DNA of 64,000 nt from the NCBI RefSeq assembly GCF_001293685.1, contig NZ_BCAG01000005.1, positions 248,001-312,000 on the forward strand, read 5' to 3'. The DNA comes from Desulfatitalea tepidiphila. Lineage in GTDB: Bacteria; Desulfobacterota; Desulfobacteria; Desulfobacterales; Desulfosarcinaceae. Under the pieces are notes generated by a model. That model was not told the DNA's origin. It made no database searches and saw only the letters and a program-made list of their open reading frames with translations. Within the stretch, counting starts at the first letter, position 1. Each line of letters begins with the position of its first letter. Positions 12,573 to 45,416 of this stretch are shown piece by piece. The position numbers were made by a program, and so were the translations under genes.

Positions 12573-12589
12573 TTCGGGACATATTTATC

Positions 12590-18062: not shown

Positions 18063-18257
18063 GCGGGTCGCATCCCCGCCGGTTTCAGAGTCGAAACGTT
18101 GACGAAAAGCCGCAACTTGATAAACGGTCCTCTATGGTTTGAAATTTTAAATTCCGTTGCCGCCCCAAGGCAATAAATCGTTGATTGCAACGCCCACCTC
18201 GCATATGAATAGGCTCCAAAATGGGATTTGTATCCGCACTCGATTCAGAGGCATCGC

Positions 18258-22787: not shown

Positions 22788-24533
22788 ATGGAAAACCACG
22801 AAAATCTTCAACAGCGATATTATCGCACCTTTTTTCGCAACATAATTTTTACCATTCTCGCCGCATCGGTAACCCCCATGATCATCGTCGGCATTTTTAT
22901 CTTCGACAACTTCAGGACATCATACAAGCAAAAAGTGCACGACCATTTGGAACTGGTAGCCTGGCATCACAAGAAAAACATCAATTTTTTCCTTCAGGAA
23001 AAACTGGCCAACATCCGCGCCATCGCCGATCACTACAGCTATGATTCCTTCAACAATCCTTATTTTATAAAACAAAAGCTCACGGAGCTTCAACAAGCAT
23101 ACAATCGTGTGTTTGTGGATCTGGGCTTGATCAATCATGAGGGTATCCAAGTCTCCTATGCCGGCCCACACGCACTCCTGAATGCAGACTATTCCAAAGC
23201 GGAATGGTTCAAAAAGGCAATCAATGCCTCGCATTTCACCAGCGACGTGTTTTCCGGACTGAGAGCCGAACCGCACTTTATTATCTCGTCCAGACAATAT
23301 TATAGAGGAGAGCCCTGGATCTTAAGAGCGACCATCGATTTTCGATCCTTCAACGATCTGGTAGAAAATCTTCGTATCGGCAAAACCGGCTTTGCCTTCA
23401 TATTGAACAAATCAGGCGAGTTCCAAACCAGGCCCAGTGCAACAACGGAAAATCCCAAAGATCTTCTCACGTTGATCACCACAAATGGCATGAGTTCATC
23501 CCCCATGGTGATCATCAAAAAGAACCAAAACGGAAAAAAGCTCATTTACGCGACAGTCCACCTCAAGCAAGGCGACTGGTGGATGATACTTCAACAGGAT
23601 CTGACGGATGCTTACTCAGACCTTTATCGAACTCAGCAAATCGCCATCATCATCATGCTGGTCGGCGGTCTGGGCATCGTCGGCACAAGCCTGCTGCTCA
23701 GCCGAGGCCTGATTAAACGCATTTCCCAGGCGGACAGGGAGAAGACGCTGGCGGACAAAGAACGCGAAATGATGTCCCAGCAGGTGATCGAAACCGGCAA
23801 ACTGGCCTCTATCGGCGAACTGGCCGCCGGAATCGCCCATGAGATCAACAACCCCGTCGCCATCATGGTGGAAGAAGCCGGCTGGATTCAGGACCTGATT
23901 GAGGAAGAGAGGCCTGCGATGGCGAACAGCGATAACCTGAGCGAAATCGAAAGAGCCCTGCGCCAGATCCACACCCAGGGTAAGCGCTGCAAGGATATCA
24001 CCCACAAACTTCTCAGTTTTGCACGCAAGACCGATTCTCGCGTGAACGCTGTTTCAATCAACGAGGCCTTGGACGAGGTGGTCTACCTTTCCGAACAGCG
24101 AGCTAAATATAGCAGCATCAAAATCAACAAACATTTTCAGCAAAACCTGCCTCACATCCAAGCCAGTGAAACCGAATTGCAGCAAGTACTGCTGAATATT
24201 GTCAACAACGCATTGGATGCCATGGAAAAAACCGGCGGAGAAATCAACATCCGATCAGGGATGGAAGACAATTTCATCGTCGTCGAGCTGGCAGACAGCG
24301 GGCCGGGCATCGCCCAGGCAAATCTCGGACGAATTTTCGATCCATTTTTCACGACAAAGCCGGTAGGAAAAGGAACGGGATTGGGATTGTCGATCTGCTA
24401 CGGCATCATTAACAAGATGGGGGGCCAGATCGATGCAAAAAGCGAGGTGAACAAAGGAACCGTTTTTACCATTCGGATGCCGATCAACGGAAGCTCAACC
24501 GAAAAAGGCCAACAACAGAAACAAAGCGCTTAG
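22788..24533 (+). CDS. Membrane sensor histidine kinase with dCache domain
   Basis: A 581-residue kinase. TM1 lies at about 19-40, then a ~240-residue periplasmic double-Cache domain (DLGLINHEGIQVSYAGPH, EPWILRATIDFRSFNDLVENLRIGKTGFAFILN) and TM2 at about 284-304. A coiled linker leads to the HisKA domain with His351 (GIAHEINNP) and an HATPase with NNALDAM, DSGPGI and GTGLGLS. dCache domains of this type bind small carboxylates or amino acids (DctB is an example). It heads an operon with two receivers and a DASS permease, behind a sigma54 promoter. Paralogues sit at 34056 and 42204, each also in front of receiver and permease genes. Confidence 0.92.
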   Translation: MENHENLQQRYYRTFFRNIIFTILAASVTPMIIVGIFIFDNFRTSYKQKVHDHLELVAWHHKKNINFFLQEKLANIRAIADHYSYDSFNNPYFIKQKLTELQQAYNRVFVDLGLINHEGIQVSYAGPHALLNADYSKAEWFKKAINASHFTSDVFSGLRAEPHFIISSRQYYRGEPWILRATIDFRSFNDLVENLRIGKTGFAFILNKSGEFQTRPSATTENPKDLLTLITTNGMSSSPMVIIKKNQNGKKLIYATVHLKQGDWWMILQQDLTDAYSDLYRTQQIAIIIMLVGGLGIVGTSLLLSRGLIKRISQADREKTLADKEREMMSQQVIETGKLASIGELAAGIAHEINNPVAIMVEEAGWIQDLIEEERPAMANSDNLSEIERALRQIHTQGKRCKDITHKLLSFARKTDSRVNAVSINEALDEVVYLSEQRAKYSSIKINKHFQQNLPHIQASETELQQVLLNIVNNALDAMEKTGGEINIRSGMEDNFIVVELADSGPGIAQANLGRIFDPFFTTKPVGKGTGLGLSICYGIINKMGGQIDAKSEVNKGTVFTIRMPINGSSTEKGQQQKQSA

Positions 24534-24599: not shown

Positions 24600-25031
24600 A
24601 TGACAATCGCCAAAGTGATGCTAGTCGACGATGAGAAACCGTTCGTGGACACCATGATCAAACGCCTGAACAAACGTGAAGTGGATATCGTACCAGCTTA
24701 TAACGGACAGGAGGCATTGGACAAGCTGGCCGAAGACAGCACCATCGAAGTGGTCATCCTGGACATTAAAATGCCGGTCATGGATGGGATGGAGGCCCTA
24801 AATAAAATTAAAAGCAAACACCCATTGGTCGAAGTCATCATGCTCACCGGTCACGCTACGGTTGAAACTGGTATCGAGGGAATGAAAATGGGCGCCTTTG
24901 ACTATCTCATGAAACCGTGCAACGCCGATGAACTTGTCGAAAAGGTACAACAGGCTGCTGCAAAAAAGCGTCAGCATGAAGAAAAAATTATGGAAGCGAG
25001 AATCAAGGCAATTACCCTGCGTAAACCATAG
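24600..25031 (+). CDS. Stand-alone receiver (CheY-like) protein
   Basis: A 143-residue receiver with all active-site residues: Asp10/Asp11, phospho-acceptor Asp55 (VILDIKMP), Thr83 (MLTGHAT) and Lys105 (LMKPCN). A short charged helical tail follows (EEKIMEARIKAI) and there is no DNA-binding output. The Shine-Dalgarno is gaggaga. It lies between the dCache kinase and the permease and probably takes phosphate from that kinase. Its target is likely a protein, possibly the neighbouring permease. Confidence 0.9.
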   Translation: MTIAKVMLVDDEKPFVDTMIKRLNKREVDIVPAYNGQEALDKLAEDSTIEVVILDIKMPVMDGMEALNKIKSKHPLVEVIMLTGHATVETGIEGMKMGAFDYLMKPCNADELVEKVQQAAAKKRQHEEKIMEARIKAITLRKP

Positions 25032-25156: not shown

Positions 25157-25558
25157 ATGACGGTAAAACTTGACGACAAGAGCGCTCCCATCAACGTGTT
25201 GTTGGTCGACGATGAGATTTGCTATGTCAATGTTTTAGCGAATCGGCTTTCGAAACGTAAAATTGCGGCCAGCAAAGCATACAGTGGTACGGAAGCAATC
25301 CGGAAATTGCGGGAACAGGATTTTGATGTCGTTGTCCTGGATCTCAAGCTCGAAGACATGGACGGCATCGAAGTATTAAAAATATTGAAAAAAATGATAC
25401 CCGACCTCAATGTGATCATGCTCACCGGCCATGGCTCGGAACAAGCCGCCAAAGACGGAATTAAAGAGGGGGCTTTTGATTATCTCACCAAGCCCTGCGA
25501 ACTGCACGAGTTGATCGCAAAGATTCGGGAAGCGCACCAACAACACCAAGGAGGCTGA
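25157..25558 (+). CDS. Stand-alone receiver protein
   Basis: A 133-residue receiver with Asp18/Asp19, phospho-acceptor Asp62, Thr90 and Lys112. The loop after Asp62 reads LKLEDMDG, lacking the usual Pro of KMPGMDG, which distinguishes it from the other receivers here. It ends soon after the last helix (HQQHQGG) with no output domain. It lies 126 bp after the previous receiver and 140 bp before the permease. Confidence 0.88.
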   Translation: MTVKLDDKSAPINVLLVDDEICYVNVLANRLSKRKIAASKAYSGTEAIRKLREQDFDVVVLDLKLEDMDGIEVLKILKKMIPDLNVIMLTGHGSEQAAKDGIKEGAFDYLTKPCELHELIAKIREAHQQHQGG

Positions 25559-25698: not shown

Positions 25699-27285
25699 AT
25701 GTCATTCCTGCTCAAATCCAAACATGTTCAAATTCTTTTCGCTTTTATCCTGGGCGCTCTAATTTTGATGCTGCCCAGGCCGGAAGGCACCCAATTCAGG
25801 ATTTCCGGCGACAGCAGTTATGGATTTTACGAAACCATTCGCGAACACTTCAACCGCGTGACACCTCCCGACACGGCTGCCGAAAACTACATCGTCGAGG
25901 TTCAGAAATCGAGCGATATCGGCTCCTACGAAAAATATCTCAAAACAAAGATCGCCGAAGGTCAGAACGGCGATATCCAATTTGAAACGGTGAACGGCCT
26001 TACCCCCAAAGCCATGCGATTCCTGGCGGTGTTGGTCGTGTTGATTTTTCTCTTCCTGGTGGAGCCCATCCCTCTCGAAATCACCGCCATCCTCATCGGC
26101 GTCTCCCTGGTGGTCATGCAGATCGTGGATGTCAAAACGGCATGGGCACCCTATATGCATCCGGTGGTGGTCTTCATCATGTGCTGCCTCATCTTCGCCA
26201 TTTCACTGGAAAAGGCCGGACTGACCAAACGATTGGGGCACTTCATCGTCAAAAAGGCGGGCACCAACGTAGTCCGCTTTACCTTTTTAATCAGTATCGG
26301 CCTGGGACTCTCCTCGTCCTTTATGCACGATGCCGCCGCTGTCTCCATCGGCATCGTCACCATGTTGCCGCTCATGCGTGCCGCTGGCATTCAGCCCCAT
26401 TCCAACACGGCCAAGTTCATGTTGATTTCCCTGGCCTTCGCCTGTTCATGCGGCGGTATGGGCACCCTGATCGGTGGCGGCCGCTGCATGGTATCTGCGG
26501 CATTCCTGAAGGAGTTCACCGGCATCGAAATCAATTTCTTCGACTGGATCAAGTATGCCATGCCCATGGCCCTGGTGACCGTTCCCGCCTCGGTCATGGT
26601 CTGCTATCTGGTATTTCGGCCGGACAAGACTCTGGAACTGCCCAAATATGATGAAGCCCTGCCCCCCTGGTCGGCCAAGGAAAAAATCACTTTGATCATC
26701 ATCGGTGCGGCCTTCGTGCTCTGGTTGACCAAAGGGATGCATGGCCTGGACTATTCGGTGACCGGCATGCTGGCCGTGGCCGCATTGGTGCTGGCTGGCA
26801 TTTTGAAGTGGGACGACGTGCATGAGAACCTGGAGTGGGGCACGGCCCTGTTCATCTTCGGCGGTGGCATCTCCCTGGGGCTGGCAATGGGATACTCGGG
26901 TGCGGCAGACTACTTCGCCCATCTGTTCTTCCCACTGATCAAGGGCGGCGGCTGGCTTTTGCTGTTCGCCGGTGTGGCCGTCTTCGGCGCCCTGGTGACC
27001 AACGCCATGGCCAATGTGGCCGCGGCTGCATTGATTCTGCCCATCGTCATTCCCATGGCGCAGCTGGAGGGAGTCGATCCGCGTGTGCTGGCCTTGTGCC
27101 TCGGCACCGCCACCTCCTTTGCCATGCTGCTGGTCATCGGCTGCCCGCCCAATGCCATTGCTTACAGTTTCCGCCAGTTCAAGGCCTCGGACATTACCAA
27201 GGTCGGCCTGGTGGCCACGCCGGTGCTGCTCATCATGCTGATCGCGGTGGCGGCGGTGTGGTGGAAAATTCTGGGCCTGGTATAG
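25699..27285 (+). CDS. SLC13/DASS-family anion permease
   Basis: A 528-residue transporter. TM1 (residues 9-27) is followed by an extracytoplasmic segment of about 75 residues, unusual for the family, and then the DASS core starting FLAVLVVLIFLFLVEPIPLEITAIL. The two hairpin motifs that are Ser-Asn-Thr in VcINDY are His210-Asp-Ala (FMHDAAAVS) and Ala438-Asn-Val (MANVAAAALILP). The family imports di/tricarboxylates or sulfate with Na+; the altered motifs leave substrate and ion open. The Shine-Dalgarno is aaggag. It sits within a receiver-rich operon and is about 80% identical by eye to the permease at 29247. Confidence 0.9.
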   Translation: MSFLLKSKHVQILFAFILGALILMLPRPEGTQFRISGDSSYGFYETIREHFNRVTPPDTAAENYIVEVQKSSDIGSYEKYLKTKIAEGQNGDIQFETVNGLTPKAMRFLAVLVVLIFLFLVEPIPLEITAILIGVSLVVMQIVDVKTAWAPYMHPVVVFIMCCLIFAISLEKAGLTKRLGHFIVKKAGTNVVRFTFLISIGLGLSSSFMHDAAAVSIGIVTMLPLMRAAGIQPHSNTAKFMLISLAFACSCGGMGTLIGGGRCMVSAAFLKEFTGIEINFFDWIKYAMPMALVTVPASVMVCYLVFRPDKTLELPKYDEALPPWSAKEKITLIIIGAAFVLWLTKGMHGLDYSVTGMLAVAALVLAGILKWDDVHENLEWGTALFIFGGGISLGLAMGYSGAADYFAHLFFPLIKGGGWLLLFAGVAVFGALVTNAMANVAAAALILPIVIPMAQLEGVDPRVLALCLGTATSFAMLLVIGCPPNAIAYSFRQFKASDITKVGLVATPVLLIMLIAVAAVWWKILGLV

Positions 27286-27327: not shown

Positions 27328-28482
27328 ATGGCAGTGGAATACCTCAATCATATCCGCCTGCTTCTCATCGATGATGAAGACCATTTTCGCCAGACCCTGT
27401 TCAAACGGCTGGAAAGAAGAGGCCTGCGGGTGCGCCAGGCGGACAGCGGCGAAACGGGCCTCGCCCTCTTGAAGGCTGAACCGGTGGATGTGGTCGTACT
27501 GGATGTGAAAATGCCCGGTTTGGACGGCATTGAAGCCCTCAAATGGATCAAGGCCCAATGGCCCCAAACCGAAGTCATCTTTCTCACCGGTCACTCCACC
27601 ACCCAGGATGGGGTCGAAGGCATCAAGTCCGGCGCCTTCGACTACCTGAGCAAACCCATCGAATTCGAGCATCTGCTGGAAAAGATCAAACACGCCTACC
27701 AAAAAAAGACCAGAGATGAGGAGCGCCGCCAGGAGGCGGCTTACAAGGCCAGAATCGAGCAGCAGATGATCGCCACCGAACGTCTCGCTTCCATGGGGAC
27801 CCTGGCGGCCGGGGTGGCCCATGAAATCAACAACCCTCTGGCAATCATCAATGAAGCCGCTGGATTTCTCAGCCTGCTGCTGAAGAAGGAAGAGTTGGCC
27901 GCCATGCCACGCCGGCAGGACTTTGAAAAGGCCATTCAAAAGATCAGCAACGCGGTCAAACGCGCCCGGGTCATTACCCACCAGCTGCTGGGCAGCGTCC
28001 GCAAGCAGGAACCGGTTTTCGCCGAAGTGGATTTGTATGAGTTGGCCACGGAAACCCTTCAATTGGTGCATAAGGAAGCGGCCAACAAGGAAATCCGGAT
28101 AATCCAGTCCCAAGGCGGAAATCCCGGTCCGATCTGGATCGACCCCAACCAGGTCCGGCAGATTCTGATCAATCTGTTGACCAATGCCATCCATGCCACT
28201 GGTAAAGATGGCAAAATCGAAGTGCGCATCGAGGCGGACCCGGAAACCTCAACCCTGATCGTCAGCGACACCGGCAAAGGCATCCCCAGGGAGAACATGG
28301 AGAAAATATTCGAACCGTTCTTCAGTGACAAACCGCCGGGTGAAGGTACCGGTCTCGGCCTTTTCGTCACCCGCCAGATCGTGGAAAAACTGGGCGGCAA
28401 AATAGAAGTCCAGAGTCGGGTCGGTGTGGGAACCAGCATGAAAATCATTCTCCCCAACCGAAACCCGCTGAAGTCGACTTAG
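27328..28482 (+). CDS. Receiver-histidine kinase protein (N-terminal receiver, soluble)
   Basis: A 384-residue cytoplasmic protein with the receiver first (Asp15/16, Asp59 in VVLDVKMPGLDG, Thr87, Lys109). A coiled segment leads to HisKA with His165 (GVAHEINNP) and an HATPase with NAIHATG, DTGKGI and GTGLGLF. In this order the receiver serves as the sensor input: it gets phosphate from another kinase (likely the dCache kinase at 22788) and gates its own kinase, which could then serve the receiver at 28546. The Shine-Dalgarno is gcaggag. It lies between the first DASS gene and that receiver. Confidence 0.9.
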   Translation: MAVEYLNHIRLLLIDDEDHFRQTLFKRLERRGLRVRQADSGETGLALLKAEPVDVVVLDVKMPGLDGIEALKWIKAQWPQTEVIFLTGHSTTQDGVEGIKSGAFDYLSKPIEFEHLLEKIKHAYQKKTRDEERRQEAAYKARIEQQMIATERLASMGTLAAGVAHEINNPLAIINEAAGFLSLLLKKEELAAMPRRQDFEKAIQKISNAVKRARVITHQLLGSVRKQEPVFAEVDLYELATETLQLVHKEAANKEIRIIQSQGGNPGPIWIDPNQVRQILINLLTNAIHATGKDGKIEVRIEADPETSTLIVSDTGKGIPRENMEKIFEPFFSDKPPGEGTGLGLFVTRQIVEKLGGKIEVQSRVGVGTSMKIILPNRNPLKST

Positions 28483-28545: not shown

Positions 28546-28986
28546 ATGGTTAAAATTCCGACCAGAATATTGCTGGTTGATGATGAAAAAGATTTCGTCG
28601 AAATGCTCTCCATGCGCCTCACCGAATCAGGAGAACAGGTGACGGTGGCCTACAGCGGGCAGGAGTGCCTTGAGAAACTGGCCCGCACGGCGGTGGACGT
28701 GGTCATTCTGGACATCAAGATGCCGGGCATGGACGGCATTCAAACCCTCAGGGAAATCAAAGGCATGTTCCCGCTGGTGGAGGTCATCCTGCTGACGGGA
28801 CACGGCACCACCGAAACGGCCGTTAAGGGAATGAAGCTGGGGGCCTTCGACTACCTGCTGAAACCGGCGGACTTCGAAGATTTGAGCGCCAAACTCGAAG
28901 GTGCCAAGAAGAAGAAAGATGAACAGGATGAACGCATCCGGCAGGCCGAAGCCAGACTTTTATTGCGCAAGGGTGGCAATATCTGA
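28546..28986 (+). CDS. Stand-alone receiver protein
   Basis: A 146-residue receiver with Asp12/13, Asp56 (VILDIKMPGMDG), Thr in LLTGHGT and Lys in LLKPAD. The tail is a positively charged helix (EGAKKKKDEQDERIRQAEAR) ending LLLRKGGNI. It is nearly identical in layout, length and tail to the receiver at 30882, so the two arose by duplication together with the flanking permease. No output domain. Confidence 0.9.
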   Translation: MVKIPTRILLVDDEKDFVEMLSMRLTESGEQVTVAYSGQECLEKLARTAVDVVILDIKMPGMDGIQTLREIKGMFPLVEVILLTGHGTTETAVKGMKLGAFDYLLKPADFEDLSAKLEGAKKKKDEQDERIRQAEARLLLRKGGNI

Positions 28987-29246: not shown

Positions 29247-30827
29247 ATGCTAGCGGTCGCAAAATCTAAAAAGGTCCAAATTTGTTTCGCATTTTTGCTC
29301 GGTGCCATTGTCTTACTGTTGCCCAGACCGGAAGGAACCCGTTTCAGGGTTACGGGCGACAACAACCAACGCTTTTTCCAAACCATCCAGGAAACATTCG
29401 AACTGGTCCAACCGGCGGATAAGACCGGCGATGGCTATGTGGTGGCAGTGCGCCATGCGCAACCGGGAGCGGATGGTGTACTGAACCAAAAGGCCAAGGC
29501 CTTCGCTGACGGGACCATCCAGATCGACTACCTCGATGGTCTCTCGCCGAAGGCGATGCGCTTTCTGGCGGTTCTGGTGGTGCTGATCTTCCTGTTCCTG
29601 GTCGAACCCATTCCCCTGGAAGTAACGGCCGTGTTGATCGGCGCTTCGCTCGTTCTCATGGGGATCGTGGATGTCAAAACCGCCTGGGCGCCCTACATGC
29701 ATCCGGTGGTGGTCTTCATCATGTGCTGTCTCATTTTTGCCATCTCCCTGGACAAAGCGGGCTTGACCAAACGAATGGGACATTTCATAGTCCAGAAGGC
29801 AGGCACTAATGTGGTCCGGTTCACATTTGTCATCAGCACGGGTTTGGGCATGGCCTCCATGTTCATGCACGATGCCGCGGCCGTCTCCATCGGCATCGTC
29901 ACCATGCTGCCGTTAATGCGCGCCGCCGACATCAAACCTCACTCTAGTACCGCCAAATTCATGTTGATCTCCCTGGCATTCGCATGCTCGTGCGGGGGAA
30001 TGGGGACACTCATCGGCGGCGGCCGCTGCATGGTATCGGCCGCGTTTCTAAAAGAGTTCACGGGGATTGAACTCGACTTCTTCGACTGGATCAAATACGC
30101 CATGCCCATGGCCATTGTCACGGTCCCTGCTGCCGTACTCATCTGCTACCTCGTATTTCGCCCGGACAAAACTTTAGAGCTGCCCAAGTTCGATGAGAAG
30201 CTGCCGCCGTGGTCGTTTCAGGAGATCATCACCCTGGTCATCATCGGTATCGCCTTTGTACTCTGGTTAACCAAGGGGCTTCACGGTCTCGACTACTCGG
30301 TCACCGGCATGATCGCGGTGGCTGCCCTGGTACTGGTGGGCATATTGAAATGGGACGACATCCACGAAAACCTGGAGTGGGGCACGGCCCTGTTCATCTT
30401 CGGTGGGGGCATCTCGTTGGGGTTGGCCATGGGTTACTCGGGAGCGGCCGACTATTTTGCCAACATTTTTTTCCCGCTCGTCAAGGGCGGCGGCTGGCTG
30501 CTGCTCTTCATCGGTGTTGCGATTTTCGGCGCACTGGTGACCAACGCCATGGCCAATGTGGCAGCCGCTGCACTGATCTTGCCGATCGTGATTCCCATGG
30601 CGCAACTGGAGGGAGTTGACCCGCGGGTGCTGGCCTTATGCCTCGGCACCGCTACTTCTTTTGCCATGCTGCTGGTCATTGGCTGCCCACCCAATGCCAT
30701 TGCCTACAGCTTTCGACAATTCAAGGCATCGGATATCACCAAGGCCGGCCTGGTGGCCACACCGGTCCTGATCGCCATCCTCGTTGGCATCGCCTTTGTC
30801 TGGTGGAAATTTCTGGGGTTGGTATAA
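29247..30827 (+). CDS. SLC13/DASS-family anion permease, paralogue of 25699
   Basis: A 526-residue transporter closely similar to the gene at 25699 through the whole core, including FMHDAAAVSIGIVTMLPLMRAA and MANVAAAALILPIVIPMA in place of the classical Ser-Asn-Thr motifs. It diverges mainly in the ~75-residue extracytoplasmic segment after TM1 (PADKTGDGYVVAVRHAQPGA). Such a pattern suggests the same transported ion but a different outer partner or affinity. ATG with aaggag; an alternative start is not supported. It is followed 54 bp later by its receiver (30882). Confidence 0.9.
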   Translation: MLAVAKSKKVQICFAFLLGAIVLLLPRPEGTRFRVTGDNNQRFFQTIQETFELVQPADKTGDGYVVAVRHAQPGADGVLNQKAKAFADGTIQIDYLDGLSPKAMRFLAVLVVLIFLFLVEPIPLEVTAVLIGASLVLMGIVDVKTAWAPYMHPVVVFIMCCLIFAISLDKAGLTKRMGHFIVQKAGTNVVRFTFVISTGLGMASMFMHDAAAVSIGIVTMLPLMRAADIKPHSSTAKFMLISLAFACSCGGMGTLIGGGRCMVSAAFLKEFTGIELDFFDWIKYAMPMAIVTVPAAVLICYLVFRPDKTLELPKFDEKLPPWSFQEIITLVIIGIAFVLWLTKGLHGLDYSVTGMIAVAALVLVGILKWDDIHENLEWGTALFIFGGGISLGLAMGYSGAADYFANIFFPLVKGGGWLLLFIGVAIFGALVTNAMANVAAAALILPIVIPMAQLEGVDPRVLALCLGTATSFAMLLVIGCPPNAIAYSFRQFKASDITKAGLVATPVLIAILVGIAFVWWKFLGLV

Positions 30828-30881: not shown

Positions 30882-31322
30882 ATGATTAAAGTTCCGACCC
30901 GGATATTGATAGTCGACGATGAACACGATTTCGTTGAAATGCTCAGCATGCGTCTCAAAGAAGCCGGTGAAGTGGTGGATGCAGCCTATGATGGTGAAGG
31001 ATGCATTCGAAAGCTCCGACAGGACGGATTCGATGTGGTCATTTTAGACATTAAAATGCCCGGCATGGACGGCATCCAGACGTTGCGAAAAATTAAAATC
31101 ATGTTCCCACTGGTGGAAGTCATTCTGTTGACCGGACACGGCACGACGGAAACGGCAGTAGAGGGAATGAAGCTGGGCGCTTTCGATTACCTGTTGAAAC
31201 CAGCAGACTTTGAGGACCTCGAGACCAAACTGGAAGGCGCCCGGCGCAAAAAAAGCGAACAGGAAGAGCGCATACGGCAGGCCGAAGCGCGCTTACTGCT
31301 GAGAAAAGGCGGCAACATCTAA
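30882..31322 (+). CDS. Stand-alone receiver protein, paralogue of 28546
   Basis: A 146-residue receiver with Asp12/13, phospho-acceptor Asp56, Thr in LLTGHGT and Lys in LLKPAD, and the same charged tail ending LLLRKGGNI as the protein at 28546. Conservation of the tail in both copies suggests it is the contact surface for a shared target. It is the last gene of the operon and is followed by a terminator hairpin. Confidence 0.9.
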   Translation: MIKVPTRILIVDDEHDFVEMLSMRLKEAGEVVDAAYDGEGCIRKLRQDGFDVVILDIKMPGMDGIQTLRKIKIMFPLVEVILLTGHGTTETAVEGMKLGAFDYLLKPADFEDLETKLEGARRKKSEQEERIRQAEARLLLRKGGNI

Positions 31323-31456: not shown

Positions 31457-31945
31457 TTATTCGGACTGATCGATCTCTCTGAGCTTGCTCAGAATCTCAC
31501 GGGCCGAATGCCCCATGGATATTCGCAGCATGGCATCCATTTTTTTCTCTTCGATCTGCTTCTTGTTCATCACCCGCTGCCTGAATGCCTGAGCCAGGGT
31601 ATCCAACAGGCGATCGAATTCACAGGGCTTCTGCAAATAGGAGAATGCACCGGCACGTGAACACTCAGCGGCGGAATCGATGGTGCCGTGACCCGTGAGA
31701 ATTACGATTTCCATCCAGGGATGCTGCTTTTTCAACGCCTCAAGCGTCTCTTTTCCGTCCATGCCGGGCATTTTCAAATCTACCAAAGCGATATCAATGG
31801 GCTGGTTCCTGGCGACTTCAAGTGCCTTGTCTCCCCTGTTGACGGCTGTGACATTGAAGTCGCGCATTTCCAGGCTGCGGCTGATGGAATGCAGAAACTG
31901 TTCCTCGTCATCAACAATCAACAAATTAATCTTATTGGTTATCAT
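31457..31945 (-). CDS. Stand-alone receiver protein
   Basis: A 162-residue receiver with Asp12/13, Asp56 (ALVDLKMPGMDG), Thr in ILTGHGT and Lys in LQKPCE. A ~35-residue charged tail follows (NKKQIEEKKMDAMLRISMGHSAREIL) with no DNA-binding motif. It is the third gene of a minus-strand operon after the dCache kinase and the receiver-permease fusion, 66 bp downstream of the fusion gene. Confidence 0.9.
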   Translation of the reverse strand: MITNKINLLIVDDEEQFLHSISRSLEMRDFNVTAVNRGDKALEVARNQPIDIALVDLKMPGMDGKETLEALKKQHPWMEIVILTGHGTIDSAAECSRAGAFSYLQKPCEFDRLLDTLAQAFRQRVMNKKQIEEKKMDAMLRISMGHSAREILSKLREIDQSE

Positions 31946-32011: not shown

Positions 32012-34078
32012 CTAAAAGCCAAACCATTTCCAATAACCCCAGAATACCCAGATCCAAAGCACCGCCATGCTCAGAATAAAGACCATGGTACCATGGATTA
32101 AAAAGTCCTTCATCGTGATCAACTGTTCGCCGGTTTCAGGATCCTTTGCGATACTGAAGACTATGGCGTTGTTGGGCGTACCGATAATCAGGATGTGGGC
32201 AAAGGATGAAGCAAAAGCCGTTGCCAGCCCCACCAGCAGCGGTGACGTGCCAGACAAGGTGGCCATGGGTACCGTGATCGGGCCGATGGCGGCCACCGTG
32301 GCGCCGTCGCTCATGAAGTTGGTCATGATGCCGGTGATCAGGCTGGTGGAAATGCATAAACCCGTTCCGGCCATGAGAAAATCGGGCAGCAGATTCACGA
32401 AACCCGAGGCCAGCCACAAGGCCGCACCGGAGGCCGCCAAACCGTAACCCATGGCGCTCGCGGCTGCATAGAGCGCCACCACGTCCCAGTGGATGCCGTT
32501 GATGTCCTTCCAGCGCAGAATGCCCAGAATGTTCAACAGCACCAGGGCCAGCAGGGCCGGACCGCCCATGCCCAGTTTGTCGGACAGGGTCGACCACATC
32601 AGTATCAGCAGTACAAGCACGAAAGCCGCTTTGTACTCATCCCGAGTCATTTTTCCGATCTTTTCCGACTCCCGCCGCACCTCGGCCGCCACATTGACGT
32701 TGGGCGACAAAATCTTCTTTCTGAAGACGATCAGAAAGTAGGCCGCAATGACGATGGACATCACCGGCACGAACGGCAAGCCGCGCGCCACCCACTGCCC
32801 GAAGGAGAGCTGGACCCCGTAGTCGGCGAAGATGCCCAGCATCACGGCGTTGCGGCCGCCAGCGGCCGGTGATCCGGGTCCTCCCACATTGCCGCAGAAG
32901 GTGAGCATCAGCAGCAGCATGACCACCAGGGCCTTGTCCTGATTCAGGTTGGCCGATCGGATGGCGCCCAGGTATACCATCATGAGAATCGGCGCGATAA
33001 AAGCCACCAGGGCGTGCTCGGATAAGAATGAGGCCGTGACCGAAAGCAACGGAGCGAAGATAAAACAGAACTTGACCAGATTGGTGCTGGTACCCAGCAG
33101 CAGTATGCCGATGCGCCGGTCCAGGCCGGTTTTGGTGATCGCCGCGGCCAATGCCAGAACGCTGAAAATGAACACCACCGAATCCTTGGCATAGGCCTGG
33201 GCCACGTCTCCTGGTGTGAAAACGCCGAAGAAGTACATCAAAACGCCGACCAACAGGGCCGTTACACCGATGGGAATCGCCCCCGTGGCCCAGAAGAGCG
33301 CGGCCACGACCAGAACCCCCACCATCACCTTGGCCCGCAGGGCCACCTGCGTGTCGGTGGCCGGTCCTTTGGTGACCTTGCCATCGGCGTTCAGGGTATT
33401 GCTGCTGATCTTGGCCTTGGCGCCATAATATTCGACAATGGTCTGACCGGGTTTCATCTTCTTGTAGTCCGAGTAGCCCGTTATGGACTCGGCGGGCTTG
33501 CCTTGTTTGGGAGTGGTCAACAGAGTATAGAGGGACTTTGGTGTGGGCATCAACGCGATGAAAAGAAACAGCACTGCACCCAGGATGATAATGCCGGGCC
33601 GCGCATTGTGAGCGCCGATGAGCCACTGTTTTAGACTGGTCCGTTGAATATCCGGGATCTCGTGGCGGGCCAGCGCCTTGACTCTTTCCGAAGCCGCGGC
33701 CTGAATGGCGTCGATCAGGTCTTCGATGGGGCAAGGTTTTTCGATGTATCGAAATACGTCGTGCTTGCCCGTGATACGGGCCGATTCGGTGGTGCCGTGT
33801 CCGGTATGCATGATCACCTGGACCTCCGGACGGATTTTTTTGATCTCCTTTAAGGTCTGAATTCCGTCCATCCCCGGCATTTTCTGATCCAGAATGACCA
33901 CTTCCGGATTTTCGTGGCGCACCAACTTGATGGCGTCTTCGCCGTTGTCAACATCGAGGACCTTGTAATTTCGCACCACCAGCTGCTGGGCCAGGCCCTT
34001 GCGAAAATCTGGTTCGTCGTCAATCAGCAGAACTTTCGGCAACCCGTTGCCGTCGCTAATCGGCATTGCTTTTTCCAT
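32012..34078 (-). CDS. Receiver domain fused to SLC13/DASS-type permease
   Basis: One continuous frame of 688 residues from ATG 34078 (Shine-Dalgarno aaggag, 7-nt spacing; 23-base overlap with the kinase gene). Residues 13-130 are a complete receiver: Asp20/21, phospho-acceptor Asp64 (VILDQKMPGMDG), Thr92 (MHTGHGT) and Lys114 (IEKPCP). A ~30-residue linker leads to TM1 (about 162-181), an extracytoplasmic segment of ~75 residues and a DASS-like core with Ser353-Glu-His and Ser590-Asp-Gly at the positions of the classical Ser-Asn-Thr motifs. The receiver is thus covalently tied to a transporter, so phosphorylation probably gates transport. Both halves are intact and no frameshift is needed. 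Confidence 0.92.
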   Translation of the reverse strand: MEKAMPISDGNGLPKVLLIDDEPDFRKGLAQQLVVRNYKVLDVDNGEDAIKLVRHENPEVVILDQKMPGMDGIQTLKEIKKIRPEVQVIMHTGHGTTESARITGKHDVFRYIEKPCPIEDLIDAIQAAASERVKALARHEIPDIQRTSLKQWLIGAHNARPGIIILGAVLFLFIALMPTPKSLYTLLTTPKQGKPAESITGYSDYKKMKPGQTIVEYYGAKAKISSNTLNADGKVTKGPATDTQVALRAKVMVGVLVVAALFWATGAIPIGVTALLVGVLMYFFGVFTPGDVAQAYAKDSVVFIFSVLALAAAITKTGLDRRIGILLLGTSTNLVKFCFIFAPLLSVTASFLSEHALVAFIAPILMMVYLGAIRSANLNQDKALVVMLLLMLTFCGNVGGPGSPAAGGRNAVMLGIFADYGVQLSFGQWVARGLPFVPVMSIVIAAYFLIVFRKKILSPNVNVAAEVRRESEKIGKMTRDEYKAAFVLVLLILMWSTLSDKLGMGGPALLALVLLNILGILRWKDINGIHWDVVALYAAASAMGYGLAASGAALWLASGFVNLLPDFLMAGTGLCISTSLITGIMTNFMSDGATVAAIGPITVPMATLSGTSPLLVGLATAFASSFAHILIIGTPNNAIVFSIAKDPETGEQLITMKDFLIHGTMVFILSMAVLWIWVFWGYWKWFGF

Positions 34079-35804
34079 TGATGGCTCCTTTGCTTTTGTT
34101 TTTGGGCAGCACCACGGTGAACGCACTGCCAGCTCCCGGCAAGCTTTGGACCTCGATGGTTCCGCCCATAGATTCAATGATTCCGATGGAAACACTCAGC
34201 CCCAATCCGGTTCCTTTGCCAACTTCCTTCGTGGTGTAGAACGGATCGAAAATCCTTTTGAGTTGTTCGCTGTCCATACCCTTGCCTGTATCGGTAATGG
34301 TGACACGAACCGTTTCTTCATCCTGGTTCGTGGAAATGGTAATCTTTCCGGGCCCCTGAATGGCGTCCCCCGCATTGTTGATCAGGTTTAAAAATACCTG
34401 GCGAAGCTGATCCTGATCGACCATCACCATCGCCAGGTCTGCATCAAATTGCCTTTCTACGGAGATATCGTCCAATCCCAAAGAACGCTCCTTGAATCCC
34501 AGCAAGACATCATCAATGATGGCGTTGATATTGGAACGCGCCAGGTGGGGCTCACTTTTACGCCCATAATTCAGCAGCTGTTGGGTTATTTTCCTCGCCC
34601 GGAAAACGGCTTCTTCGACAACCTTGATCTCCTGTATGATCTGAGCCGGAGATGCATCCATGTTAAATTCAGGATTGAGCATGTCCTTGATCACACCGCT
34701 TGTGGCCAATATGATGGCGAGTGGGTTGTTGATTTCGTGCGCCACCCCGGTGGCCAACGCCCCCAGTGACGCCAGTTTGGAGGCGTGCAGCAGCTGCGCT
34801 GTCAACGCGTCCTGCTTCTCGGCGTTTTCCCTGGCTTTTGCCACCAGTGCGTGGGTCGCCATCCAAATTGTCATGCCCACGATCACCAGGATAACTGTCG
34901 AGCCGATCAGCATGAACTTGCGGGCCTTGTAGAGCTGGGCGTAGGCAATACTCAACGGTTCGCTCACCAGAAGAGACCAGGGCACCTCTTTCAACCAGGC
35001 GTGAGCCATAAGGACAGCATCACCATTGGTCACAATCGTCTGGGCGCCGGAAGGCACGTCCACGGGTGGGATATAACTGCTTACCGACAGCGCCTCATCG
35101 ACTCCTTGATCGGCCAATTGGATACGCCCTTCGCGGTTGACCAGAGCGGAGGCCACGCCTTGTCCGCGGTTGATCGTTTTGAGAAAGAGATAGAATTTGT
35201 CGGGATCCAAAGTGGCCCGCAATATGACAGGATGGTCATTCACGGTCTGCTTTGCGGCAATGGTAAAATGAAGTTTATTCCGAAACCCAAGATAGATATC
35301 ACTGATGGCATAACCGTTTTCAGAGGACTCCAATGTAGAGAACCAATCCTGAGCGCTGTAATCTTTGTTTTGAAGAAAAGGAAAGGGGCCAGCATAGCCA
35401 ATTTGCATTCCATGCTGGGTCAAATAACCAATATCGATAAAGGCATCGCTGGTTTGTCTCAACTGCCGGAGAAGACTGTCCATTTGCTGTTGGGATGGCA
35501 CCAGACTGAAAGCGGGGTTATGAAAGAGAGCGAAAATATTCACCAACCGTTCCTGGAGAAAAAGATCGACAGTGTTGCGTTGACTTTCGGCTATGGCGGC
35601 CAGATTCAGCTTTCCGGTCTCTTTCAATGTCATATGAAATTGATAATGAAAATAAGCTGAAAGCAATATCAGGGGAACGAGAAAAGCAGCCATCAACCCC
35701 AATAAAAATTTACGTTCCAGCTTTATGAAGTAAGCCTTAAGATCCACTTGCTTGTCTGGGTCTGTAGAGACGTGTTGGCCAAGTGATGGTGGCAGTGAAG
35801 ACAT
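34056..35804 (-). CDS. Membrane sensor histidine kinase with dCache domain
   Basis: A 582-residue kinase. A ~25-residue cytoplasmic lead comes first, then TM1 at about 35-56 and a dCache domain with DIGYLTQHGMQIGYAGPF and VILRATLDPDKFYLFLKTI. TM2 lies at about 287-308. The H-box has His356 (GVAHEINNP), and the HATPase has NNAGDAIQG, DTGKGM and GTGLGLSV. It heads the operon with the receiver-permease fusion, with which it overlaps, so the fused receiver is its obvious substrate. The Shine-Dalgarno is aaagg. A sigma54 promoter lies 93 bp upstream. Confidence 0.92.
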   Translation of the reverse strand: MSSLPPSLGQHVSTDPDKQVDLKAYFIKLERKFLLGLMAAFLVPLILLSAYFHYQFHMTLKETGKLNLAAIAESQRNTVDLFLQERLVNIFALFHNPAFSLVPSQQQMDSLLRQLRQTSDAFIDIGYLTQHGMQIGYAGPFPFLQNKDYSAQDWFSTLESSENGYAISDIYLGFRNKLHFTIAAKQTVNDHPVILRATLDPDKFYLFLKTINRGQGVASALVNREGRIQLADQGVDEALSVSSYIPPVDVPSGAQTIVTNGDAVLMAHAWLKEVPWSLLVSEPLSIAYAQLYKARKFMLIGSTVILVIVGMTIWMATHALVAKARENAEKQDALTAQLLHASKLASLGALATGVAHEINNPLAIILATSGVIKDMLNPEFNMDASPAQIIQEIKVVEEAVFRARKITQQLLNYGRKSEPHLARSNINAIIDDVLLGFKERSLGLDDISVERQFDADLAMVMVDQDQLRQVFLNLINNAGDAIQGPGKITISTNQDEETVRVTITDTGKGMDSEQLKRIFDPFYTTKEVGKGTGLGLSVSIGIIESMGGTIEVQSLPGAGSAFTVVLPKNKSKGAINGKSNAD

Positions 35805-36041: not shown

Positions 36042-36449
36042 TTATTTGCTGCGGGTCTGGGTGGGATCTTTTTTACTGTTTTGTTCCGACAGGATCACAC
36101 GGATTTTTTGCTTCAGCAGATCCACGCTTTGGCCGCTCTTTTCGACAAACGCCACGGCCCTGCCGGGTGTGCGGATGGAAAAGCAATCGGAGGCCAGACA
36201 ATGAAAAATGACGGTCAGGGTTGGCCGCTCCGCCAACATCCGGCCAAAAGCGGCCGGATCCTCCAGGCCCGGCATATCGGGATCGATAACCAGGGCATCC
36301 AGCTTGCCGGGCCGGTGAATCCAATTCTTGAGCTGATCGGCGTTATCGGCCGAATAGACGCGATGGCCTTCGCTTTTCAACTCCCGCTGCACGAAATCCC
36401 TTATCCGCGGGTTCCGATCGGCGATGAGGATGACATATTCTCTGTCCAT
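36042..36449 (-). CDS. Receiver-like protein (divergent)
   Basis: A 135-residue protein from ATG 36449, two bases after the acetyltransferase gene. It has a receiver fold with Asp11 and phospho-acceptor-like Asp56 (LVIDPDMPGLED). The second acidic residue is Arg12, the switch Thr region reads FHCLAS, and Lys is kept without the usual Pro (VEKSG). Phosphorylation is uncertain. The C-terminal tail is basic/charged (SEQNSKKDPTQTRSK). It is the last gene of the USP-acetyltransferase operon. Confidence 0.75.
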   Translation of the reverse strand: MDREYVILIADRNPRIRDFVQRELKSEGHRVYSADNADQLKNWIHRPGKLDALVIDPDMPGLEDPAAFGRMLAERPTLTVIFHCLASDCFSIRTPGRAVAFVEKSGQSVDLLKQKIRVILSEQNSKKDPTQTRSK

Positions 36450-36450
36450 A

Positions 36451-40341: not shown

Positions 40342-40342
40342 C

Positions 40343-41806: not shown

Positions 41807-41871
41807 CTCCTGTCTCCACCTCGCATATTGTTGCGGCCGCACCGGTCATAAGGGTCCGTCTTGCAAACGCC

Positions 41872-42027: not shown

Positions 42028-42148
42028 ACAGTGCGTAAAATTGCCTGACATCCGGTGAGCGTCCCTTCCCAAAGACCTGCTCATGGGATTCTCATTCTTT
42101 AACCAATAATTCAAATAGATAGAAGGCGCATAGATGTGCCATGGGGTT

Positions 42149-42164
42149 TGGCATCATCGTTGCT
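42149..42164 (+). promoter_or_regulatory. Sigma54 (-24/-12) promoter
   Basis: TGGCATCATCGTTGCT: one mismatch in -24, exact TTGCT at -12, and 10 bases between GG and GC. Transcription would start near 42175, about 29 bases before the TTG start of the dCache kinase. This also shows that the in-frame ATG at 42141 lies upstream of the transcript and is not the start. Confidence 0.82.
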
Positions 42165-42203
42165 CATGCCTTTTTTGCCGTAACCAAACCCGGGAGGACC
42201 ACT

Positions 42204-43925
42204 TTGAAAGACTACTACACGCGCACGCTGCGCAACATGCTCATCATTCGCGTCTTCCTCGTTCCATTTGCAGTGATGCTGGTGGTTTATGGCACCATCA
42301 TCTACTTCTTTGCATCCTATTCCGTCCGACAAGTGAGAAACGAATTGGTGGGCATCGCCGAAGGCCATCGCAATATCATCGACCAGTTCCTCTCCGAGAA
42401 AGCCGCTATTCTGCAATTCACAGCCGCCAGCTTCAGTCGTGAACAGCTGCGTCAGAGAAATCATCTGGACATGATCTTCAAAAACCTACAGACCCAGTCC
42501 AAGGCCTTCTTCGACCTGGGGGTATTCGATCAGAACGGCCGGCATGTGGCCTATGCCGGCCCCTTCGACCTGCTCGGCAAGAGCTACGCGGAGGCCGAGT
42601 GGTTCAAAAGGGTTCAAAACGTTTCAGTATACATCTCAGACGAATTCCTCGGCTACCGGCAAATCCCCCACTTCATTATCGCCGTCAAGAAGGAAGAGAC
42701 GGAAATCGCCTGGTACCTGAGGGCTACCATCGACACCTATTACTTCAATGATCTGGTGGAGAACATCCGCATCGGTCGCACCGGAGAGGCCTATATTGTC
42801 AACCGGGAAGGCGTCCTGCAGACCAAGCGGCGTTCTGGCGGACGGATCATGGAACCAGACCCCGATTTCGTCAAATACGCCACTATCGACCATGGGAAGA
42901 CAACCTTTTTCACCTCAGGCGGCTGGCGCAATGGGTACCTGTATGCGTCGGCCCCTATTCAGCAAACCAACTGGCAGCTGATCGTACGCCAATCCATCGG
43001 CGACGCCTATGCCCCCCTGGTCTCCTCCACGCTGGTTTCGTTTCTTCTGTTATTGGGCGGCAGTGTTATGGTGGTGCTCATGGGCTTTTTCATGGCTGCC
43101 AACGTGGCCGCGCAGCTGAAGTCGGCCGACCTGGAAAAGCGTGAGATGAAGACTCAGTTGATCCTGGCCGGAAAGCTGGCCGAAGTGGGTGAAATGAGCA
43201 CGGGCATCGCCCATGAAATCAACAATCCACTGCAGGTCATGAAATCCGAAGTGGCCATGATTCAGTCCCTGACCGAGGATATCAGCCCCATCATCGAGAA
43301 CCAGGCGCCTCAAATGCTGATCCAGTTGAAAGACTGCACACGGGAGATCGGAGACCAAATCAACCGCTGCAGCCATATTACCCAGGGATTGCTCAATTTC
43401 GCCCGTAAGCGTGAAAACACCAAGGAGCCGATCGTTCTCGAGCAATTTGTGCCCAAAATGGTCCAAATGGTGGATCAACGAGCACGTCTGGAAAATATCC
43501 GCATCGTCCAGGAGATCGAGTCGGATTTGCCGCAAATCGTCAGCGACCCCAACCAGCTGCAGCAAGTCTTTCTGAATCTCTTCAATAACGCCATCTATGC
43601 GCTCAAGGAGCGCATCTCACCTGAAATCCGCGTCCGCGTAACCAAAGAGAATACGACGATCCTCATCTCTGTTTCAGACAATGGCTGTGGGTTTTCGTCC
43701 GAATCCATGGAAAAGGCGTTCCTGCCCTTTTACACCACCAAACCGGTGGGTCAGGGAACCGGACTTGGTCTGAGTACGGTCTACGGCATCATCAAGGGGT
43801 TGGGCGGCGACATCACCCTGACCAGCGAGCAAGGCGCAGGTTCGGAATTTCAAATCCGCCTACCCATAGAAGAAATAGACAACACCAGCGTTCAATTTAA
43901 TCATACTTTGTCTCAAAGGAGGTAA
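42204..43925 (+). CDS. Membrane sensor histidine kinase with dCache domain (TTG start)
   Basis: A 573-residue kinase. TTG 42204 has gggagg at 6-nt spacing and follows the predicted transcription start, and its N-terminus (LKDYYTRTLRNMLI) aligns with that of the paralogue at 22788. TM1 is at about 12-34. The dCache domain has DLGVFDQNGRHVAYAGPF and WYLRATIDTYYFNDLVENIRIGRTG. TM2 is at about 272-294. The H-box has His337 (GIAHEINNP), then NNAIYAL, DNGCGF and GTGLGLST. Its stop is part of the Shine-Dalgarno (aaaggagg) of the next receiver gene, so the two are tightly coupled. Confidence 0.9.
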   Translation: MKDYYTRTLRNMLIIRVFLVPFAVMLVVYGTIIYFFASYSVRQVRNELVGIAEGHRNIIDQFLSEKAAILQFTAASFSREQLRQRNHLDMIFKNLQTQSKAFFDLGVFDQNGRHVAYAGPFDLLGKSYAEAEWFKRVQNVSVYISDEFLGYRQIPHFIIAVKKEETEIAWYLRATIDTYYFNDLVENIRIGRTGEAYIVNREGVLQTKRRSGGRIMEPDPDFVKYATIDHGKTTFFTSGGWRNGYLYASAPIQQTNWQLIVRQSIGDAYAPLVSSTLVSFLLLLGGSVMVVLMGFFMAANVAAQLKSADLEKREMKTQLILAGKLAEVGEMSTGIAHEINNPLQVMKSEVAMIQSLTEDISPIIENQAPQMLIQLKDCTREIGDQINRCSHITQGLLNFARKRENTKEPIVLEQFVPKMVQMVDQRARLENIRIVQEIESDLPQIVSDPNQLQQVFLNLFNNAIYALKERISPEIRVRVTKENTTILISVSDNGCGFSSESMEKAFLPFYTTKPVGQGTGLGLSTVYGIIKGLGGDITLTSEQGAGSEFQIRLPIEEIDNTSVQFNHTLSQRR

Positions 43926-43927
43926 CC

Positions 43928-44377
43928 ATGCCCTTAACGAACGTGCTGATCGTCGACGACGAGGAACGATTTTTAAAGACCACCCAGACCCTGTTAGAAA
44001 AGGAGGGGTACAAAGTCTTCACGGCCGCCGACGGGTACAAGGGGCTCGATGCCCTGAAAGACAGACGCATCGATGTGGTCGTGCTGGATGTCAAAATGCC
44101 CGGCATGGACGGCGTCGAAGTCCTGAAGCGCATCAAGGCGGAACATCCTTTGGTGGAAGTGCTCATGCTCACCGGCCATGCCACCATGGAAACGGCCATC
44201 GACGGCCTCAAATTGGGCGCCTTCGATTATCTGACCAAACCCTGTGACATTGCCACCCTCAAGGAGAAGATCATGGCTGCCTATGACAAGCGGTCGGCCA
44301 TGCTGGAAAAGATTCAAAAGGCCAAATTCGATCGTATCATCAGCCATCCCATGGAAGTCTTTTCCAAAGATGAATAG
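43928..44377 (+). CDS. Stand-alone receiver protein
   Basis: A 149-residue receiver with Asp10/11, Asp54 (VVLDVKMPGMDG), Thr in MLTGHAT and Lys in LTKPCD, plus a ~30-residue charged tail. It begins two bases after the dCache kinase stop and is very probably its phosphorylation target. No output domain. Confidence 0.9.
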   Translation: MPLTNVLIVDDEERFLKTTQTLLEKEGYKVFTAADGYKGLDALKDRRIDVVVLDVKMPGMDGVEVLKRIKAEHPLVEVLMLTGHATMETAIDGLKLGAFDYLTKPCDIATLKEKIMAAYDKRSAMLEKIQKAKFDRIISHPMEVFSKDE

Positions 44378-44448
44378 GACCGACCCGCACCGGTTTGTTA
44401 CATGCAGGTATTAACCACTGAAGGAGAACGCAAAGGAGAATGGATCCC

Positions 44449-45363
44449 ATGTCAACGAAGATACGCGTATTGATGGTGGACGACGAAGAACGCTTTCGTG
44501 AAACCACCGCCAAGCTCCTGACCAACCGGGGCTTTGAAACCACTATTGCCGGAAGTGGTGAGGAAGCGATTGAAATCATTCAAAACAAACCTCACGACGT
44601 TGTCGTGCTGGACATCAAGATGCCCGGTATGGATGGACACCAGGCCTTGTCGAAAATCAAGCACCTGCAGCCCGATGCCCAGGTGATCATGCTCACCGGG
44701 CATGGCACGCCCAATTCGGCCCGCGCCGCCTTGACCCAGGATGCCTTCGATTACTTGAGCAAACCTTGCGACATCGACATTCTTACGGCCAAGATCAACG
44801 CGGCCTACCTGGAGAAAAGGGGGGAAGGGAAAAAGGGGGGCCGACGAGAGAAAAAGGTTCGCGACATCATGATCCATGTCGAAGACTACTCCAAGGTATC
44901 GGTGGATGATACGGTCAAGGACGCCGTATCGACCCTCTTGACCTCCTTCAACAAATTCATCTCCAGCGGCCGCCTCATGGAGACCGGCCATCGCTCGCTG
45001 TTGGTTTACGATCGATCGGGCAAGCTTGCCGGCATCCTCAGCATCACCGATCTCATGCGGGCCTTGCGACCGGCCTACCTATCGGCAGCCAAGCCCTCCA
45101 TGGCCGACAGTATGCAGTATTCGGCCATGTTCTGGGAAGGGCTCTTCACCACCCAGGCCAGGGCCCTGGCCAACAAAAAGGTAGGCGAAATCATGTCCGA
45201 CACGCCAATATCTGTAGACCAGGAGAGCAATCTGATGGAGGTTGCCAATCTCATGTTCACCTCCAGAATCCGGCGCCTCATCGTCACCGACCTCAACAAG
45301 AAGGTCGTCGGTGTGGTGCGGGAACAGGAAATCTTCTTCGAAATCGCCAACATCATCATCTGA
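44449..45363 (+). CDS. Receiver - tandem CBS domain protein
   Basis: A 304-residue protein from ATG 44449 (aaggag at 10 nt; the ATG at 44440 is only one base from it). The receiver has Asp11/12, phospho-acceptor Asp55 (VVLDIKMPGMDG), Thr83 and Lys105. A Lys/Gly/Arg-rich linker (EKRGEGKKGGRREKK) leads to a CBS pair: VRDIMIHVEDYSKVSVDDTV...LAGILSITDLMRAL (about 137-210) and VGEIMSDTPISVDQES...IRRLIVTDLNKKVVGVVREQE (about 245-304). CBS pairs bind adenine nucleotides and gate many channels and transporters. With the permease gene 53 bp downstream, this looks like a transport regulator combining phosphorylation and energy status. Confidence 0.9.
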   Translation: MSTKIRVLMVDDEERFRETTAKLLTNRGFETTIAGSGEEAIEIIQNKPHDVVVLDIKMPGMDGHQALSKIKHLQPDAQVIMLTGHGTPNSARAALTQDAFDYLSKPCDIDILTAKINAAYLEKRGEGKKGGRREKKVRDIMIHVEDYSKVSVDDTVKDAVSTLLTSFNKFISSGRLMETGHRSLLVYDRSGKLAGILSITDLMRALRPAYLSAAKPSMADSMQYSAMFWEGLFTTQARALANKKVGEIMSDTPISVDQESNLMEVANLMFTSRIRRLIVTDLNKKVVGVVREQEIFFEIANIII

Positions 45364-45416
45364 TTCCGTGCAGAACGATGACGCACCGGATGATCCCGTT
45401 CAGGAGGTAAATCACT

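Follow-up and report, generated by a model that had tools for sequence, protein, structure and literature searches.

A two-component receiver fused to a DASS-fold permease in Desulfatitalea tepidiphila is a conserved protein and a candidate for uptake control by phosphorylation

The window, i.e., the whole stretch of 64,000 nucleotides analysed here, holds between positions 18228 and 47270 four DASS genes, six kinase genes, six receiver-only genes and one receiver-CBS gene. In one of the four DASS genes the permease is joined in frame to an N-terminal receiver. The features needed below are as follows.

32012..34078, minus strand: receiver-permease fusion gene, 688 aa (translation, Pfam, conservation, AAGGAG before the ATG)
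33698..34039, minus strand: receiver domain, residues 14-127 (Pfam, conserved phosphorylation site, fold match)
33599..33697, minus strand: last part of receiver helix 5 plus the linker, residues 128-160 (constant length, model)
32015..33598, minus strand: DASS-fold permease, residues 161-688 (Pfam, fold, SEH at 353-355, SDG at 590-592)
34056..35804, minus strand: membrane histidine kinase with a Cache-like sensor, probable cognate kinase (Pfam, H356, model, linkage)
31457..31945, minus strand: receiver-only gene directly downstream of the fusion, 162 aa (Pfam, conserved position)
22788..24533, plus strand: dCache histidine kinase (Pfam, cut-off passed)
24600..25031, plus strand: receiver-only gene (Pfam, Response_reg only)
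25157..25558, plus strand: receiver-only gene (Pfam, Response_reg only)
25699..27285, plus strand: unfused DASS permease (Pfam)
27328..28482, plus strand: receiver-histidine kinase protein (Pfam)
28546..28986, plus strand: receiver-only gene (Pfam, Response_reg only)
29247..30827, plus strand: unfused DASS permease (Pfam, above the TIGR00785 cut-off)
30882..31322, plus strand: receiver-only gene (Pfam, Response_reg only)
42141..43925, plus strand: dCache histidine kinase (Pfam, cut-off passed)
43928..44377, plus strand: receiver-only gene (Pfam, Response_reg only)
44440..45363, plus strand: receiver with a CBS pair (Pfam)
45417..47270, plus strand: unfused DASS permease, 617 aa (above the TIGR00785 cut-off)

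The fusion gene is a 688-codon frame that runs on the minus strand from 34078 to 32012, and the plus strand over the same interval is broken by stops. Its 5' end, ATG included, overlaps the last 23 bp of the kinase gene 35804..34056, and AAGGAG is found 6 nt 5' of the ATG. Pfam places Response_reg at residues 16-126 (93.9 bits against a cut-off of 30.2, E 9e-27) and Na_sulph_symp at residues 245-686 (134.8 bits against a cut-off of 27, E 6e-39), and the AF2 model of the full fusion has a pLDDT of 79.3 and a pTM of 0.73. A first-pass annotation of this DNA had described an uninterrupted receiver-permease frame that overlaps a kinase gene and carries the phosphorylation residues D20, D21, D64, T92 and K114, and it had named a stop or frameshift between residues 130 and 162 as the weak point. 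No such break is present in the frame, all five residues are where they were placed, and the fusion, its complete phosphorylation site and the kinase gene directly 5' of it all stand. The strand had been left out, and the gene is on the minus strand.

The search for receiver-SLC13 fusions across genomes that had been proposed with that annotation showed that, of 389 genomes from this class of mostly sulfate reducers, at least 36 carry the fusion. In 32 of them it is full length (33 genes) and in four it is cut by contig ends; since scoring covered the three best candidates of each genome, this count is a lower bound. The fusion genomes cover 16 family labels, and the genus Desulfatitalea contributes 4 of its 11 genomes. 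In a phylum-wide sample of 395 genomes, three, the window's own included, have a full-length fusion at a threshold of E 1e-130. The scan of named genomes gave at least 76 loci within the best 80 of 126 places; 53 of these were annotated, and 23 short or partial matches were left out. Receiver and permease share one frame at 47 of the 53, with 42 of these frames reaching 640 aa or more, and the named fusion loci include Desulfatitalea alkaliphila M08but, an isolate. Some named fusion records are labelled as other phyla (Poribacteria, Planctomycetota, Nealsonbacteria and others), and these may be mis-binned. Two groups of candidates were rejected. Five whole-length matches with internal stops (L054, L055, L056, L163 and L164) are separate neighbouring genes, and among ten permeases with long frames (over 700 aa from stop to stop, with the match from residue 159 or later), the five at L172-L176 start at 537-544 aa and have no receiver.

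Could the frame be an artefact of sequencing, assembly or frame assignment? Full-length fusions at 50-89% identity are present in 31 other genomes and a fusion is present in the cultured isolate D. alkaliphila; the gene is under purifying selection, and the link between its halves is free of gaps (see below). We therefore reject this explanation, whose probability is negligible. The fusion is confirmed as a real conserved protein.

The receiver half matches receiver domain folds with Z of 18-19. It also has what a two-component response regulator carries, i.e., a score above the PF00072 cut-off, an acidic pair, the phospho-acceptor Asp, Thr/Ser and Lys. The codon of the phospho-acceptor Asp64 is 33889..33887 on the minus strand. 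Conservation of the site was counted in two sets. D64, T92 and K114 are present in 30 of 30 fusions aligned from the whole-protein search, which are 30 of the 33 full-length genes, the three without loci being left out; this set was picked for frames with DDE near the N-terminus, so only these three residues were counted in it. Conversely, D20 and D21 are present in all 44 fusions chosen by domain score; the named-genome scan behind that set (best 80 of 126 places) used the pattern LDQKMPxM, which contains D64, so only the acidic pair was counted there. The two sets overlap in genes, and near-copies occur in both. The 44-fusion set is without L039, L041, L042 and L165. Three of these, L039, L041 and L165, are the named records L085, L111 and L126, and L042, which equals no named record, is counted in the 30-fusion set as L012.

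Across the 44 fusions, residues 120-172, which cover helix 5, the linker and the start of TM1, form 53 columns without a gap. Unlike this link, the N-terminal tail is free to vary. Majority identity in the same fusions is 24% for the tail, 68% for the linker, 76% for the receiver and 79% for the permease core. In eight pairs, dN/dS of the receiver is 0.04-0.10, that of the linker (33 codons) 0-0.13 and that of the permease 0.045-0.10, with several dS values near saturation. In the model, helix 5 comprises residues 118-138 and is followed by a short helix at 149-154 and then TM1. The mean charge is +1.3 on the N-terminal side and +1.7 in the first loop, which does not settle the topology; by homology to VcINDY, we take the receiver N-terminus to be cytoplasmic.

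The permease half is a DASS-fold PF00939 permease that falls outside TIGR00785. It scores 164.8 bits against the cut-off of 198.6 of this NCBI DASS family, which the window permeases at 29247 and 45417 pass. Its fold matches NaDC3 (8uve) with Z of 29.4 over 442 residues at 3.0 A and NaS1 (8y5u) with Z of 28.4 (VIA-align; Foldseek also matched), and the Pho90 structures (PDB 8r33-8r35) with Z of 27.7-28.1 at 18% identity in the fold alignment. Two SNT motifs are the mark of Na+-coupled carboxylate transporters. In the VcINDY alignment, these motifs are absent from the fused permease and from the other three permeases of the window. At the SNT positions, the fused permease has SEH (S353-E354-H355) and SDG (S590-D591-G592), both invariant in 43 aligned fusions. 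The same two motifs are found in the 15 closest unfused orthologues (rows L014-L028, taken by search rank alone), and the four lower-ranked loci L029-L032 read SAH, SAP, SAP and SGH at the first motif, the last in a broken frame. Fused and unfused permeases differ at 22 clade-marking positions (44 fused against 31 unfused rows, the latter being 22 genes with nine counted twice). Among these are Glu266, Asp274 and Lys548 of the unfused orthologues, which 93-100% of fusions replace by Gly, Ala and Ala; Gly266 is present in 93% of the 44 fusions, and Glu266 in 25 of 26 unfused permease rows compared. The loss of these three residues in the fused clade possibly reflects an adaptation of the permease to its attached receiver.

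A kinase gene lies directly upstream of the fusion at 39 of 44 loci with upstream sequence, and at 36 of them it has a Cache sensor. The phospho-histidine H356 is present in 28 of 28 aligned upstream kinases. From this genomic linkage, the kinase at 34056 is the probable cognate kinase of the fused receiver. It had been labelled dCache, and by Pfam this label is weak for the protein itself (26.3 bits against a cut-off of 45); it gains support from the paralogues at 22788 and 42141, which pass, and from a structural model. The model of the 34056 kinase (pLDDT 79.7, pTM 0.48) has a periplasmic part that we read as two stacked Cache-like modules. Among the 50 Foldseek matches listed for it there is no named dCache domain; they are to the kinase half or to multi-domain sensor kinases. 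At eight fusion loci, the upstream Cache kinase (681-735 aa) has its own N-terminal receiver before the sensor, which is an unusual order:

L086, 5893-7938: upstream Cache kinase with an N-terminal receiver
L087, 2349-4394: upstream Cache kinase with an N-terminal receiver
L090, 5870-7915: upstream Cache kinase with an N-terminal receiver
L091, 2792-4870: upstream Cache kinase with an N-terminal receiver
L104, 5677-7884: upstream Cache kinase with an N-terminal receiver
L123, 5717-7810: upstream Cache kinase with an N-terminal receiver
L126, 5780-7825: upstream Cache kinase with an N-terminal receiver
L131, 6064-8109: upstream Cache kinase with an N-terminal receiver

Downstream, the surroundings are conserved as well. 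A receiver-only gene follows the fusion directly at 33 of 42 loci, and the remaining nine downstream genes encode a Cache kinase (four), a CBS protein (four) or a receiver-CBS protein (one). Equivalents of D20, D64, T92 and K114 are present in all of 36 downstream receiver-only proteins and D21 in 97%. A second set often comes next, consisting of a Cache kinase, a receiver, an unfused permease of about 617 aa and a receiver-CBS protein; in the window it lies at 42141-47270. Domain labels at the relatives' loci are from profiles built on the window proteins. The first-pass annotation had pointed to output-less receivers near permeases, and the six in the window are real. By Pfam they have no DNA-binding domain. 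Five match Response_reg only, and in 31457-31945 Response_reg is accompanied by FleQ and VpsR matches near or below their cut-offs. Outside the class, the receiver-kinase-permease module seems to exist too. In records labelled Omnitrophota and Zixiibacteriota (L136:7584-10367 and L139:7560-10333), the gene after a Cache kinase encodes a tandem double receiver of 285 aa, and an unfused permease of 618 aa comes next.

Three further observations concern the cluster and its vicinity. The receiver-CBS gene type of window 44440-45363 recurs beside a DASS permease at many loci; through its CBS pair, an energy or adenylate signal may reach these permeases. At 36042-36494 (minus strand) there is a weak receiver (30.5 bits), which is the C-terminal part of a 283-aa frame whose N-terminal part overlaps a GNAT gene; by eye it has no Thr and only part of the acidic pair, and it is perhaps a pseudo-receiver. 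At 10713-13534 (plus strand), the gene of a SulP permease with a STAS domain precedes that of a universal stress protein. SulP is the second uptake system in the sulfate-uptake paper cited for the DASS cluster (PMC11887813).

How did the fusion arise? In the permease tree, a branch with support of 84/83 sets apart the 48 fused rows, among them the L039, L041, L042 and L165 copies, and the 16 unfused orthologues form their own clade (99/99). Rows L166 and L113 have long branches. No unfused row falls inside the fused clade among the 64 rows of the tree. A receiver tree of 117 rows groups its 18 fused receivers in a single clade (SH-aLRT 99), and this tree has too few columns to single out the stand-alone sister of the fused receiver. 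The permease tree is consistent with a single fusion event, without proving it. Sink receivers are known in two-component systems, and receivers are abundant in this cluster, so the fused receiver could merely drain phosphate from the kinase, or be carried along passively, without effect on the permease. A tree that fits a single fusion and has no unfused row within the fused clade speaks against this, as does a linker under purifying selection and without indels, and we regard such a role as very unlikely. The 16 unfused orthologues were picked by the motif LSEHALVA, so SEH carries no weight in them. A Cache kinase follows within 400 bp at 14 of the 16 loci (one is cut by the end of its stretch), and at five the end of a receiver-only gene lies no more than 60 bp upstream, in three of these at 16-18 bp. 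Since unfused permeases lie beside receiver genes and the fusion joins the two, separate receivers would by the gene-fusion argument also act with the permease.

We favor the reading in which the kinase phosphorylates the fused receiver and the receiver gates the permease, and judge it the best and a reasonably probable one from the conserved residues, link and gene order. The Cache-type kinase would sense an outside solute and phosphorylate Asp64. The change in shape of the receiver would then pass through the linker of fixed length to TM1 and the cytoplasmic face, altering the rate of transport at a constant amount of protein, with control of either sign. Receiver-only proteins would act in trans in relatives without the fusion and on the other permeases of the cluster. 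A receiver acting on a permease had been put forward as the reason for so many output-less receivers at this locus; it remains their best explanation, as unfused orthologues adjoin receiver genes, and stand-alone receivers may thus gate permeases in trans.

Two alternatives keep a role for the fused receiver. Potentially, the protein is a transceptor, in which the receiver is a module for docking or phosphate exchange, the permease reports its occupancy to the kinase, and the output is a downstream receiver or sigma-54 regulators. A kinase and NtrC-type pair does lie close by (window 38905-41842), as it does at several relatives, and the receiver-only gene that usually follows the fusion would suit this scheme. 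Docking alone, however, needs no full phosphorylation site, yet every copy has one, including the fast-evolving L166 and L113, and the fixed linker favors transfer of force into the permease. We hold the transceptor to be unlikely. Alternatively, phosphorylation could set the amount or place of the permease through proteolysis or clustering, and not its rate. The yeast transporters Pho87 and Pho90 are also degraded via their SPX domain, according to the part of the source available (PMC7381174). Tagging needs no gap-free link, and the search for degradation signals, made through Pfam domains, tests this reading weakly. This second alternative seems to us distinctly improbable.

The locus type itself has been published; for the receiver-permease protein, the literature searched gave no description. 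According to the 2025 paper (PMC11887813), Desulfosarcina variabilis has a 30.5-kb DASS cluster that also encodes CBS proteins and two-component systems, related clusters bring the total to 26 species, and the DASS transporters of the D. variabilis cluster are abundant and formed constitutively. There, the kinases are proposed to sense outside sulfate and the regulators, called WalR type, to act on expression; the words 'fused' and 'receiver' are absent from the main text. The window cluster has the gene content of this sulfate-uptake cluster of sulfate-reducing bacteria, in which about 30 kb encode DASS permeases together with Cache kinases, regulators and CBS proteins. The first-pass annotation had missed this, together with the divergence of the permease and its lack of SNT motifs. 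Because the locus type is a published DASS cluster for sulfate uptake in sulfate reducers, the best candidate substrate is sulfate or another oxyanion. Sulfate is disfavored by the absence of SNT motifs, by the score below the DASS cut-off and by dsrA, for which fusion genomes show no enrichment (31 of 36, against 325 of 389 in the sample, a weak test as 84% of the sample is dsrA-positive). We place this assignment just short of an even chance.

If the receiver gates transport, two-component control of uptake would take one protein-protein step, without gene expression. From constitutive formation, output-less receivers and the fusion, we infer that control acts on activity as well. According to work cited in PMC5840216, Desulfobacterium autotrophicum expresses its DASS and SulP genes differently depending on sulfate, which points to a transcriptional layer; in the part of that source available, response regulator, two-component and fusion gave no match in a word search. 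High outside sulfate switches off high-affinity sulfate accumulation, an observation for which the same source cites Stahlmann 1991. The published transcriptional reading (PMC11887813) and the unaffected transport of CbrA, described below, weigh against gating, as far as the available parts of these sources go. Our wider proposal, which we offer tentatively and think somewhat less likely than its opposite, is that response regulators with a secondary transporter as output are a lineage of their own, and that the islands of about 30 kb are post-translational switches of uptake, in which kinases that sense an anion outside the cell act on the rate of transport by way of receivers, covalent here and in trans elsewhere. 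If true, sulfate uptake would be controlled at the level of activity beside expression. Gating by the fused receiver would also explain the many output-less receivers kept beside DASS permeases and make the switch-off at high sulfate that Stahlmann 1991 is cited for testable by one mutation in one gene.

Response regulators are classed by their output domain. No receiver-SLC13 fusion was found in the mostly open-access literature on receiver-transporter proteins and output domains that we searched, and a word search of the available text of two surveys found neither transporter nor permease (PMC4558063, PMC5847659). The first-pass annotation had presented a transporter as an unusual output, which is overstated given the precedents of the SPX-DASS proteins Pho87/Pho90 and of CbrA. 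CbrA and CrbS, the SLC5-STAC histidine kinases, resemble the fusion in that each combines a secondary transporter with a two-component part in a single polypeptide (PMC13022988 and PMC7096432 for CbrA, in the parts available). However, CbrA carries a kinase, SLC5 and STAC and acts on a separate transcriptional regulator, whereas here a receiver sits on a permease in which Pfam finds neither an SLC5 nor a kinase domain; CbrA transport is unchanged when its signalling domains are removed, as the available part of PMC7096432 has it. To the Desulfosarcina DASS cluster (Dvar_38230, Dvar_38430; about 30 kb), the locus is likened by its gene content of DASS, Cache kinases, response regulators and CBS proteins (PMC11887813, available part). 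The fused permease shares its fold with VcINDY, NaS1 and NaDC3 and differs from them by SEH and SDG in place of SNT, by Gly266 and by the N-terminal receiver. The neighboring receiver-only proteins are like the output-less regulators of the CheY/Spo0F type, which act by protein contact, whereas in the fusion the presumed target is covalently attached. Another parallel is in yeast. Pho87 and Pho90 also have an N-terminal regulatory domain on a DASS-fold permease, and this domain restrains transport, its removal raising uptake up to eightfold in the available part of the report (PMC7381174). That domain is SPX instead of a two-component receiver, and it comes without an adjoining kinase gene; Pfam at E 0.001 found Response_reg and no SPX domain in the fusion. 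By this analogy, the fusion may function as Pho90 does, although it falls outside the SPX-DASS permeases.
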